From Verrucomicrobiota bacterium (lineage in GTDB: Bacteria; Verrucomicrobiota; Kiritimatiellia; Kiritimatiellales; Tichowtungiaceae), in the NCBI GenBank assembly GCA_030153935.1, contig JASKKX010000012.1, forward strand, positions 1 to 37,156: a stretch of 37,156 bases of DNA. Reading direction: 5' to 3'. Positions 7,760 to 12,607 of this stretch are shown one piece after another. Under the pieces are notes generated by a model that worked only from the letters and a program-made list of their open reading frames with translations, was not told the DNA's origin and ran no database searches. The position numbers and the translations under genes are program-made. How positions within the stretch are numbered: position 1 is the stretch's first letter; the number at the start of each line of letters is the position of its first letter.

Positions 7760-8881
7760 CTATTTCGGGAGCTTTATTTTCCAGCGGATATAGGTGGGAA
7801 TATCGAGGTCTTCCCCTTTCCAGATCGTGCGTTCCGCACCGCCGAATGTACGGGAGCGCGGTTTGAGAATACCGGCCAGCTCTCCCTGTTTTCCAATGCC
7901 GGAAGCAGGTCGCAATCCGCCGCGACCATCGTCAACCAACGGCTCTTTCCACGATTCAGCCGCTAAAATGATCGCCGAGATACTTCCTGCCGAAGACGGA
8001 TCAATGACCACCCCGGTCTTAAGCCAGCACTCTTCGCCTTCAGGAGCAACTCCTTCGACAATCTGCTGAATTTCGGAGAGCTTCATATCTTCTCCTCCGG
8101 TAATTCCGACAATCATTCCCGAGGCGTTTTCGAACACCGCGCCATCCGCGACCAGCGGATGAGTGCGCAGCGCATCAATCAGGTGGTCAACCCGCCCCTG
8201 CCCTGCTGCCGCTGCACAGGAAAAGCGGCAGAAAGCATCGCAATAACTGAGCATCGTGTGCAGTGAAACAAAGTCGAGATTACAGATTCCGGGCCGAGCC
8301 AGCAGTTTCCAGAGGCTGCTGACCCCTGCGGCAAGTGTCTGGTTACTGCGTTCAAGGCTGTCTTTAAAGAGAGCCTCGCCATCGGGCTGAATCAGAGCGT
8401 TCGGCATTTGTACAATGGCATCGGCGTAGGTCCGCAGACGGCGGATCGCGGTGCGTGCTCTGTTCTGTACGGCCGGGCCCTCAAACGGGAACGGAAGAAC
8501 GGTAAAAAACAGAGTTGCCGCCCCGAAACCACGGGCCATGCGGGCAACGACCGGAGAGGCACCGGTGCCGAACCCTCCGCCAAGCCCGGTGATGACCATC
8601 AGCAGATCGACACCGCTCAGCAGGATTTCCAGCTGGCTCGAGGCATTTTCAGCACACCGTCGTCCGATTTCAATGTCACCGCCGGCACCCATTCCATCCG
8701 TGAATGCCTTGCCGATTGCCAGACGATGTTCGATGTGTGCGCAGGTTTCCAAAGTTTGGAAATCGCAGTCCGCCACAGCGAACTCCATTCCTTCCACTGC
8801 ATATGGCACAATGCCGGCGATGGTGTTGCATCCGGCTCCGCCGAGCCCGAGAATCAGTATCTTTTTTGAAGAATCAATCAC
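7760..8881 (-). CDS. ftsZ: Divergent FtsZ cell-division GTPase
   Basis: 'LGLGGAGCNTI', 'DGMGAGGDIEIGRRCA', 'GLGGGFGTGASPVVA', 'LARPGICNLDFVSLHTML', C-terminal peptide 'LDIPTYIRWK' (cf. DIPAFLR); directly follows ftsA. Confidence 0.92.
   Translation of the reverse strand: MIDSSKKILILGLGGAGCNTIAGIVPYAVEGMEFAVADCDFQTLETCAHIEHRLAIGKAFTDGMGAGGDIEIGRRCAENASSQLEILLSGVDLLMVITGLGGGFGTGASPVVARMARGFGAATLFFTVLPFPFEGPAVQNRARTAIRRLRTYADAIVQMPNALIQPDGEALFKDSLERSNQTLAAGVSSLWKLLARPGICNLDFVSLHTMLSYCDAFCRFSCAAAAGQGRVDHLIDALRTHPLVADGAVFENASGMIVGITGGEDMKLSEIQQIVEGVAPEGEECWLKTGVVIDPSSAGSISAIILAAESWKEPLVDDGRGGLRPASGIGKQGELAGILKPRSRTFGGAERTIWKGEDLDIPTYIRWKIKLPK
8746..8762. repeat. Dispersed palindrome TTTCCA-N5-TGGAAA (perfect)
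   Basis: tttccaaagtttggaaa, inside ftsZ. Confidence 0.9.
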
Positions 8882-10103
8882 GTTTGCCTCCCCACAATCT
8901 GGACAACCATTCCCGCCAGCCGGCGCGAACCTGCGGTTCTTCTTTCAACTGGCCGGCGGCATAGCGGACACAGCCAATCACTGCAGCAAACCGGCCGCCT
9001 TCCTGTTTGGTGGAAAGACCGATGCAATTGTGAATGCACCCTATGTGGGCCGGTGCGTTAAATACCTGCTGAGCCAGATCCGCAACTCCTTCCAATGCCG
9101 AGCCGCCGCCGGTAAGAATAATTCCTCCACTCAGCACTCCGGAAAGTCCGTTCTGTTCAATCCGGTCGGCAATCAACCGGAACGTCTCTTCCATACGGGC
9201 ATGAATGATGGTGTGTAATGTGGCGGTGCGCACAACACGGCCACTGAAACCGCCTTCGGCCGGAATAGATATATTCTGATCTCTTTTCAGGCGATTGATC
9301 ACGGCACTGCCTGATTCCTTTTTCAGCGCCTCGGCCTGCCGGCGATTGAGACTGAGCCCGCTGCAGATATCCGCAGTGACATGATCCCCGCCAACCGCAA
9401 TGGAACCTGAAAGTTTAATGAGGCCGGCATTGCACACGAGATAATCGGTCGTCCCGCCGCCGAGATCAATCACCACCGCACCTGATCGTTTCTGCTCCGG
9501 GCTCAATACCGCCAAAGCGGAACAGAACCCGCCAAACGCTGCATCCGCACAAACAACCGGAACGCTTTCTGTAAGTTTTTTCAGATTTTCAACCACCGCC
9601 CGCTGACCATGAATGAGCACCATGCCGACACGGAGTTCATGGGCCAGCATTCCCTCCGGATTAACAATTCCGCTGCGTCCATCCACTTCAAAGGTCTGCT
9701 GCAGAGTATGCAGCCGTATGCGATCTTCAGGGACCGGGATTTTCCGAGCCACTTCCAGCGCGTGCTCAATATCATCCCGCGTAATCTCGCCGCCCGGCTC
9801 GTCGTACTCGTTAAGCACCGGAATTCCGCCTGCAAAAAGCAGGCTTTCCGCCCGTCCGCCGGAGGCCGCAAGATAAATACTCTCGCCGATCGATTTGTTG
9901 GAGCTGCTCTCCGCGGTCTCCATCGCCCGGCGCACTGAATCAAGGGCGAGCTCAAAGTCGACAATTTCGCCCTTGCGGACTCCGCGTGAATCGCACTCAC
10001 CGATGCCTGCAACCATCAGGCCTCCGTCTTCACGAACTTCAGCCATCAAAACTTTGACGGTTGTCGTACCGATTTCAAGCGCTGTAATAAGAGGAGCAGC
10101 CAT
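8874..10103 (-). CDS. ftsA: Cell division protein FtsA
   Basis: Actin-fold motifs 'ALEIGTTTVKVLMAEV', 'VVIDLGGGTTDYLV', 'ILTGGGSALEGV'; C-terminal amphipathic 'WREWLSRLWGGKRD'. Confidence 0.95.
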   Translation of the reverse strand: MAAPLITALEIGTTTVKVLMAEVREDGGLMVAGIGECDSRGVRKGEIVDFELALDSVRRAMETAESSSNKSIGESIYLAASGGRAESLLFAGGIPVLNEYDEPGGEITRDDIEHALEVARKIPVPEDRIRLHTLQQTFEVDGRSGIVNPEGMLAHELRVGMVLIHGQRAVVENLKKLTESVPVVCADAAFGGFCSALAVLSPEQKRSGAVVIDLGGGTTDYLVCNAGLIKLSGSIAVGGDHVTADICSGLSLNRRQAEALKKESGSAVINRLKRDQNISIPAEGGFSGRVVRTATLHTIIHARMEETFRLIADRIEQNGLSGVLSGGIILTGGGSALEGVADLAQQVFNAPAHIGCIHNCIGLSTKQEGGRFAAVIGCVRYAAGQLKEEPQVRAGWREWLSRLWGGKRD

Positions 10104-10113
10104 GCGGGTATTC

Positions 10114-10938
10114 TCAATAATAGGTTACCGGCACATTACGTCCGTCCGGCGTTAAGTCGATGGTTTTCACGCGATGCCCCTGTTCTTTTGCGAGTTGCAG
10201 CACGCGGACCAGCCGGATCAGTTTTTCCCGCGCGGAATGCTGCGGAAAACGAACCGTTGTCTCGCCGTTGACGGTCGCCGTGACAAAGTCGGGATAGCGG
10301 ACGTCAAAGCCGGAAAACGAGACCTGCGATCCGAGTCCGAGCTGGTCAACAGAGGCCAGAAGCTCCAAACACTGACTGACACCGGGCTTCTCAATCCGAT
10401 CGCCGGGTTTTAATTGGTCAAGCTTCAGGCCTTCAATGATCGGTAACGATTGTCCGCTGCGCGTTACAGGCAGCACAACCCCGTGACGGTCCACCAGAAA
10501 CGGACGGCTGCGGGAATTCCAGCGGATCTGTGCCACCGCCACCCGTTCTCTCACATTGATCACCAGTGTGTTGGGCAACTTGCGCTGAATACCGATTGAT
10601 TCAATCAAAGGAACTTGTTTAAGTTTTCCTCGCAAATCATCCGGGCTGATGCTGAAGAGATTCTCGCCGATTTGAATTCCCGTATATTCGCGCAACTGAG
10701 AGGGGGAAAGACGCCCGTCAGAGGAAATCTTCAGCTGTCTCAGCTCGAAATAAGGATTGCGGGAGAAAAAGAACGAACCGGTGTACGCAAGGCCCTTATA
10801 GATACCGAAAAGAATCGGGAGGGCAACCGCAACAAACAAAACAACAATCAGACTTCTCCGAATCGCAACTTTTTTAGAGGACCTGTTCTTGGAATAATGG
10901 ATTTTCCCCCGAGATTTTTTCCGTCTTTTTGCAACCAT
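10114..10938 (-). CDS. ftsQ: Cell division protein FtsQ (POTRA domain)
   Basis: Basic N-terminus, single TM, 'LKQVPLIESIGIQRKLPNTLVINVRERVAVAQIRW' POTRA/FtsQ signature; position between ddl and ftsA. Confidence 0.9.
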   Translation of the reverse strand: MVAKRRKKSRGKIHYSKNRSSKKVAIRRSLIVVLFVAVALPILFGIYKGLAYTGSFFFSRNPYFELRQLKISSDGRLSPSQLREYTGIQIGENLFSISPDDLRGKLKQVPLIESIGIQRKLPNTLVINVRERVAVAQIRWNSRSRPFLVDRHGVVLPVTRSGQSLPIIEGLKLDQLKPGDRIEKPGVSQCLELLASVDQLGLGSQVSFSGFDVRYPDFVTATVNGETTVRFPQHSAREKLIRLVRVLQLAKEQGHRVKTIDLTPDGRNVPVTYY

Positions 10939-10969: not shown

Positions 10970-11860
10970 TTATAGCGAAGCGGTCTGCATGATTCGATCA
11001 CAAAGCACAGAAAACCCGATTCCAGCAGCGGCGGCGGCCTTGGGAAGCAGGCTGTGCGAGGTGAATCCGGGGATGGTGTTCAGTTCAAGTACAAAAAGCT
11101 TCCCGTCCGGCGTCATACGGAAATCGACCCGCCCGAAGCCGCGCGCGCCGAGCACTTCAAAGGTTTTCAGAGCCATAGCCTGCATCCGGGCGGTGGAGTC
11201 GGCATCAAGTTCCGCCGGAACGTCATAACGGGTGGTATCCACTTTGTATTTGGCGGTGTAGTCATACCATCCGCCCTCCGTAACAATCTCGACAACCGGA
11301 AGCCCCTCGCCATCGACGACGCCGACAGTGAACTCGCGTCCCGGAATAAAACGCTGCACAAGAATTTCGTCGTCATACCGCCACGCATCTGCCAGTGCCG
11401 GCGGCCATTCCGATTCGTCGAAAACCAGCGAACAGCCGACGCTTGAGCCCTGTCGAGGAGGTTTTACTGCGACCGGGAGTTTCAACGACGGTTTTTCTCC
11501 GCGGCGAAGCACTTCGCTCTCCGGAACCGGCACACCTGCCTCCCGCAGACATTGTTCCGTCAGAATCTTATCGAATGCGGTCCGGCTCGCCTCCACACCG
11601 GCACCGATATAGGGGACTCCCAGTTCTGTCAGCCGCGCCTGTGCTCCGCCATCTTCCCCAAATGTACCGTGCAGGGCGATAAAGACCCCGTCAGTCCCTT
11701 TGGGAACCGTGAAATCTGGTGCAAGAACATCGACTTCTGTGGCCTCATAACCGGCTTCACGCAAGCCGGCGGCAATCGCGGCACCGGATTCAAGAGAAAC
11801 CTCGCGCTCTGCCGAAAAACCGCCTTTTAGAACCGCCACCTTCCTGAAAATCTTATGCAT
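10970..11860 (-). CDS. ddl: D-alanine--D-alanine ligase
   Basis: 'VAVLKGGFSAEREVSLESG', 'ALHGTFGEDG', 'VKPPRQGSSVG', 'FVLELNTIPGFTSHSLLPKAA'. Confidence 0.96.
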   Translation of the reverse strand: MHKIFRKVAVLKGGFSAEREVSLESGAAIAAGLREAGYEATEVDVLAPDFTVPKGTDGVFIALHGTFGEDGGAQARLTELGVPYIGAGVEASRTAFDKILTEQCLREAGVPVPESEVLRRGEKPSLKLPVAVKPPRQGSSVGCSLVFDESEWPPALADAWRYDDEILVQRFIPGREFTVGVVDGEGLPVVEIVTEGGWYDYTAKYKVDTTRYDVPAELDADSTARMQAMALKTFEVLGARGFGRVDFRMTPDGKLFVLELNTIPGFTSHSLLPKAAAAAGIGFSVLCDRIMQTASL

Positions 11861-11869
11861 GTCGCAATC

Positions 11870-12607
11870 TTACCGGACGGTAAAATCACACACAATCGGC
11901 AAGTGATCTGAAAACTGCACGTTCAGCACCTGGCACTGATCCACCTCAATTTCGGGACTGTGCAGAATAAAATCGAGGTGCCGTTTCGGTTTCCAGCTCG
12001 GGAATGTCGGCATATTGGGAATCTGGGCATTCTTCAAGCCGGTTGCGGCCAGAAAAAGGCGGGTCTCCTGTTCGCCCCACAGTGCGTTGAAATCACCGGC
12101 GACAATGTGAGGTTTCTTTACATTCTGGAGCAGATCATACATATCCCCAAGCTGGCGATGACGCAGACGCGAACCCAGTGCTAAATGGATCAGAAAGAAG
12201 GTCACATCCTCCATTTCCAGTTCAATCACCAACCGTTTCATTCCACGGTCAAAATAGTGAAATGTCTCCTTGTGCCCGCTGTCCCGCACCACAAAGGCGT
12301 TGCCCTGCCGGTTGAAAATCGGAAACCGGTTCGTCAGCGAATTCTCGGCATATTTTGAGCGATACACATGGTACTGTCCCAGCCGTTCAGCCAGCGTCTG
12401 CGCCTGGTTGATTTTCTTCGTGCGGTACGACCCCGCATCCACCTCAATCAGTCCTGCCACATCCGGGTTCAGACTATGAAGAAACTGCGCGATCCGTTCG
12501 AAATTTTTACCGGTATAGCGCAAATACCCGCGAAGCGGAAAATGAATCTTTCCCCCGCCCGTCCCGTATCGAATATTGTACAAAACAAATCTCATCGTCT
12601 GGCCCAT
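11870..12607 (-). CDS. Endonuclease/exonuclease/phosphatase (EEP) family hydrolase
   Basis: 'LYNIRYG', 'LIEVDAGS', 'LIHLALGSRLRHRQ', 'IVAGDFNAL', 'HLDFILHS', 'SDHLPIVCDF' EEP motifs; overlaps murC 3' end. Confidence 0.88.
   Translation of the reverse strand: MGQTMRFVLYNIRYGTGGGKIHFPLRGYLRYTGKNFERIAQFLHSLNPDVAGLIEVDAGSYRTKKINQAQTLAERLGQYHVYRSKYAENSLTNRFPIFNRQGNAFVVRDSGHKETFHYFDRGMKRLVIELEMEDVTFFLIHLALGSRLRHRQLGDMYDLLQNVKKPHIVAGDFNALWGEQETRLFLAATGLKNAQIPNMPTFPSWKPKRHLDFILHSPEIEVDQCQVLNVQFSDHLPIVCDFTVR

Follow-up and report, generated by a model that had tools for sequence, protein, structure and literature searches.

In filament structures of S. aureus FtsZ, T109 (T108 in E. coli) forms a bond to the gamma-phosphate analogue, the catalytic water is positioned by a swing of D210 and held with help from D213, and R143 makes a water-mediated link to D213 and the gamma-phosphate, with the backbone of strand S9 (M292, F294) being water-tied to R143 of the next subunit (PMC8936486). 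Assembly was abolished by D213N, D210N, or R143Q, and the R143K and Q48A proteins displayed GTPase activity reduced about six-fold and stabilized filaments (PMC8936486). E. coli D212A is cited, in PMC8142252, as retaining about 7% GTPase activity, and cells producing it beside wild-type FtsZ still constrict (PMC4383033). B. subtilis cells with D213A beside wild-type FtsZ form slow, partly condensed rings and still divide (PMC8079713), and V293I, in strand S9 of E. coli FtsZ, suppresses ftsZ84 (PMC4603965). With respect to Verrucomicrobiota, divergence of FtsZ is already known: the verrucomicrobial protein has been noted among the most divergent (PMC9871819), and it is essential in V. spinosum (PMC12283558). 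Pontiella agarivorans divides by binary fission and has FtsZ genes (PMC10880615). Natural loss of the catalytic residues listed above was not found described in our literature search, which lay mostly outside subscription papers, and novelty is therefore provisional.

The window analyzed here is the whole stretch of 37,156 nucleotides at positions 1 to 37,156 of contig JASKKX010000012.1 (assembly GCA_030153935.1), from a Tichowtungia-like bacterium of the order Kiritimatiellales. Its ftsZ (7760..8881, minus strand, as are ftsA, ftsQ, ddl, and the residues given below) is an intact open reading frame of 373 aa with a GTG start, which overlaps ftsA by 8 nt; both the GTG and the same overlap were also observed in a relative (G030). 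Upstream lie ftsA (8874..10103; TIGR01174, 295 bits against a cut-off of 176), ftsQ (10114..10938; POTRA_1 and FtsQ_DivIB_C domains), and ddl (10970..11860; NF002378, 335 bits), and the ftsQ-ftsA-ftsZ order was retained in seven relatives. The C-terminal peptide LDIPTYIRWK (7778..7807) was conserved in the seven aligned congeners; the corresponding region binds FtsA in other FtsZs, and the same role is predicted here. The dcw context, FtsA partner, and C-terminal peptide reported in the first-pass annotation were thus all present. An endonuclease/exonuclease/phosphatase-family gene (11870-12607) was also seen between murC and ddl inside the cluster, an insertion which recurs in two other genomic loci (G041 and L038).

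The protein scored 90.3 bits against Pfam Tubulin (cut-off 33) and 31 bits against FtsZ_C (cut-off 27), passing both. Against TIGR00065 it reached 189 bits, under the 295.2-bit equivalog cut-off, which is a score threshold and not a biological feature; three FtsZs of the same class (G030, G002, and G053) likewise fell below it, and that of G318 and the E. coli protein passed. Compared with congeners the gene had a dN/dS of about 0.1-0.2, with dS partly saturated, and by this measure it is under purifying selection. Identity to the seven relatives was 56-76% for FtsZ and 74-81% for FtsA, FtsZ being the less conserved in every comparison. FtsA is expected to be less conserved than FtsZ in other bacteria, the reverse of what was observed in these comparisons; the pattern fits a faster change of FtsZ in these relatives.

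Alignment with E. coli FtsZ placed Phe104 (8570..8572, codon TTC), which sits within GLGGGFGTGASP, in the column of T108, such that the T4 signature reads GLGGGFGTGA and the loop is GGGFGTG rather than the canonical GGGTGTG. In the T7 loop, NLDFVSLHTML, Asp203 (8273..8275) retained the catalytic aspartate D209 (S. aureus D210), and the second, D212 (S. aureus D213), was replaced by Ser206 (8264..8266, codon TCA). These two substitutions and the kept first aspartate had been identified in the first-pass annotation, along with the statement that in E. coli changes at such sites impair GTP hydrolysis. A third loss had been missed there: the transition-state arginine of helix H5, R142 (S. aureus R143), is Val138 (8468..8470), leaving no basic residue in that column. 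In total 3/7 residues of the catalytic shell were missing. Retained were the T7-loop Asn201 (N207; 8279..8281), the Mg/K-linked T2-loop residues Asp40 and Gln42 (D45 and Q47; 8756..8764, codons 8762-8764 and 8756-8758), and the equivalent of the base-contacting Asn165. A basic residue, Arg141 (column 145; 8459..8461), lies one helix turn on from the lost arginine and may be a substitute, and Trp286 (column 291; 8024..8026) lies on strand S9 at the subunit interface.

The T7 loop is not misaligned, as alignments to the B. subtilis and M. tuberculosis FtsZs of the PDB had no gaps across both motifs and the B. subtilis motifs GGGTGTGAAP and NLDFADVKTIM fell in the same columns. A stand-in for Thr108 by Ser69 of the T3 loop was also rejected, this serine being found in 13/14 congeners and not in the window protein. 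A structure model built from eight close sequences had a mean pLDDT of 57, too poor for geometry.

To place these residues in context, 175 sequences, one FtsZ per genome, were sampled across the order, class, and phylum, with E. coli FtsZ as the reference for alignment; conservation outside Verrucomicrobiota rests on the PDB alignments and the literature. The order comprises two families, that of the window (14 species of one genus) and a Pontiellaceae-like sister family (18 FtsZs). At column 108 the window family had Phe in 13/14 and Leu in 1/14. Thr occupied this column in 18/18 sister-family FtsZs, in 87/99 from elsewhere in the class, and in 41/45 other Verrucomicrobiota. Column 212 was acidic in 2/14 of the window family (Ser, Thr, Ala, or Asn in the other 12) and in 0/18 of the sister family (Cys in 14, Ser in 4); elsewhere in the class about half of the FtsZs were acidic at this position, and 100/175 across the phylum were non-acidic. 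The R142 column was basic in 0/32 FtsZs of the order versus 132/144 elsewhere, and the loss of R142 shared its distribution with Trp291, present in 31/31 FtsZs of the order having this column and 0/144 elsewhere. D209 did not vary among the 32 FtsZs of the order, and D45 was kept in 168/175 of the phylum.

As judged from this alignment, Phe108 is a mark of the genus, whereas the order is marked by the absence of R142 and, for the most part, of D212, and many FtsZs of the phylum lack a single T7 aspartate. The substitutions were borne out by comparison with relatives and are not peculiar to this gene, the trait being order-wide and in part phylum-wide. Like the window protein, the sister-family FtsZs have a non-basic residue at R142, no D212, Trp291, and an intact D209; unlike it, they keep T108, have mostly Gly at N207 (kept in 14/14 of the window family), and mostly Lys or Arg at Q47. 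Other verrucomicrobial FtsZs resemble it in frequently lacking one T7 aspartate and differ in mostly keeping R142 and T108. An independent-pairs test revealed no coupling of T108 loss to loss of D212 or R142, and one distant sequence (G307) combines Phe108 with both aspartates. In another family (f54; e.g., L157, L163, and L167) a mirror image of the window protein was seen, with Gly at D209 and Asp or Glu at 212.

Sequencing errors are excluded, since separate assemblies of relatives show the same changes, and this recurrence together with purifying selection also ruled out a pseudogene. A decaying gene, or an assembly error, in a lineage dividing without FtsZ is in keeping with the lower conservation of FtsZ than of FtsA in all seven relatives and with the lack of an FtsZ match in five genomes of the order; this explanation is nevertheless very improbable, and is refuted by the conservation seen, given the intact reading frame and start, the low dN/dS, and the congeners with the same changes. 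The five genomes (G004, G005, G014, G015, and G025), all from the sister family, are draft assemblies, one of which (G004) is rated 94% complete. In two further genomes ftsZ was split into two frames, either by a frameshift error or by a real break: the one-contig G012 (L099 and L089; G012:C1:425846-426948) and G031 (L015).

The first-pass annotation had also suggested a possible need for another FtsZ. The window's own genome, 93% complete, gave one Pfam Tubulin match only, and a second ftsZ was rejected. That the window FtsZ works only alongside another FtsZ or tubulin with a complete catalytic site finds some support in an extra tubulin-like protein in G030, G036, and G021, which has an intact GGGTGNG and a VDHED motif. 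This 366-aa accessory protein (L193 family) had no match in the window's own genome, however, and was absent from 40/43 genomes of the order, and near-complete genomes without it include some with the same FtsZ substitutions; a partner of this kind is extremely unlikely and largely refuted. In G030 the protein belongs to a conserved two-gene cassette (L212:5048-6487), in which an ORF of ~112-120 aa abuts or overlaps one for a tubulin-superfamily protein of 366-381 aa with a weak Pfam Tubulin match (30 bits) and GGGTGNG and VDHED-like motifs. The same cassette was found at L196, L215, L214, L192, L191, L189, and L213, and at a ninth locus (L195) the small ORF was not seen; the nine Verrucomicrobiota genomes are scattered, and one cassette lies near a transposase. 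The layout recalls TubR-TubZ partition pairs.

Among the 175 phylum sequences both acids were present in 47, D209 only in 96, D212 only in 28, and neither in four, two of which have Glu at 211. When the two sites were simulated independently on the FtsZ tree about 18 sequences with neither acid were expected, and four or fewer were obtained in 0 to 0.75% of 400 simulations (p 0 to 0.0075), these p-values being approximate since the tree was a quick build with motif columns excluded. Avoidance of co-loss was significant by Fisher test over sequences (p=1.3e-8) and over 65 families (p=0.036); a pairwise sign test restricted to well-supported branches pointed in the same direction, with too few pairs (median p 0.5). 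As D209 and D212 are each often lost and almost never together, we read this as selection for at least one catalytic acid, and hence for hydrolysis.

This pattern bears on whether the protein is a GTPase-dead scaffold which binds GTP and polymerizes, with turnover supplied by nucleotide exchange, proteolysis, or other factors. Loss of 3/7 catalytic-shell residues speaks for such a protein, as does E. coli D212A, whose weak GTPase does not prevent constriction when wild-type FtsZ is also present (PMC4383033). The invariance of D209 in the order and the phylum-wide avoidance of double acid loss both imply selection for catalysis, and make a dead scaffold distinctly unlikely. Of the altered or absent GTPase activity suggested in the first-pass annotation, altered activity is the best reading from these sequences, in agreement with structures and with mutants at the same positions; absent activity is less likely, and another FtsZ is unsupported.

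At the other extreme, the enzyme could be fully compensated, with Arg141 replacing the lost arginine from one turn along H5, other changes at the interface, and near-normal GTPase activity. Lys or Arg occupies column 145 in 14/14 species of the genus, compared with 13/144 FtsZs outside the order, a pattern coinciding exactly with the loss of R142, and the order-specific Trp291 and the intact D209 are in line with such a repair. The S. aureus R143K protein, on the other hand, has its charge displaced by only 3 Å and still pays about six-fold in activity (PMC8936486); moreover a lysine at 145 occurs in only 8/18 of the sister family, and D212 has no obvious replacement. We regard full compensation as unlikely.

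Our preferred explanation, to which we assign a probability of roughly 0.6, is that the window encodes a single working division FtsZ with a rebuilt, one-aspartate, arginine-less site, at which GTP hydrolysis would be slow and not abolished. With the hydrolysis site between neighbouring subunits rebuilt in this Tichowtungia-like host, the protein would bind GTP and polymerize with FtsA, Asp203 alone would carry out hydrolysis, slowly, and longer-lived, slowly treadmilling filaments would result. With the polar network gone, the interface may be stabilized instead by Trp286, which lies on the opposing strand, and perhaps by Arg141. The distribution of Trp291 suggests a hydrophobic contact in place of that network; Trp291 and Arg142 changed once together, which makes their coupling a single event, and each candidate compensation arose once. 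The sister-family genome presumed to be that of P. agarivorans has Cys at 212 and no R142, and close relatives with these losses probably include cultured species that divide normally. Since such relatives share the losses, a stripped-down, slower site is likelier than a broken FtsZ or one needing a second FtsZ. Against the slow-hydrolysis reading, either D213N or R143Q alone abolishes assembly of S. aureus FtsZ in vitro, and by analogy compensation in the window protein would have to be substantial.

Like canonical FtsZ of E. coli, B. subtilis, and S. aureus, the window protein combines Tubulin GTPase and FtsZ C-terminal domains, a G-rich T4 loop, the equivalents of N165, D45, Q47, N207, and D209, an adjacent FtsA, and the C-terminal peptide; it departs from them by T108F, R142V, D212S, the Trp at column 291, and its low TIGR00065 score (189 vs 295 bits). 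E. coli D212A, B. subtilis D213A, and S. aureus R143K and Q48A, in which GTPase or filament turnover is slowed, each carry one engineered change in an otherwise canonical FtsZ, with stabilized polymers shown for the two S. aureus proteins and constriction beside wild-type FtsZ for the other two, whereas the window FtsZ carries three natural changes together with surrounding ones. More broadly, and tentatively, Kiritimatiellales may have kept one catalytic Asp and swapped the Arg-water-Asp network for a hydrophobic contact between a mostly aliphatic residue at R142 and the Trp of column 291, in which case the arginine, the second aspartate, and the gamma-phosphate threonine would be dispensable for natural FtsZ-driven division; we consider this possible, if somewhat doubtful.

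How much GTP hydrolysis FtsZ-based division needs is a live question, and most work on it to date has used engineered mutants, frequently with a wild-type copy present. The phylum-wide pattern that one of two aspartates is enough offers a testable rule for the FtsZ mechanism. In single-FtsZ bacteria, including cultured ones, losses that in vitro disable model FtsZs occur naturally. Such bacteria would allow a direct test, in a natural setting, of the catalytic residues and the extent of treadmilling needed for division.
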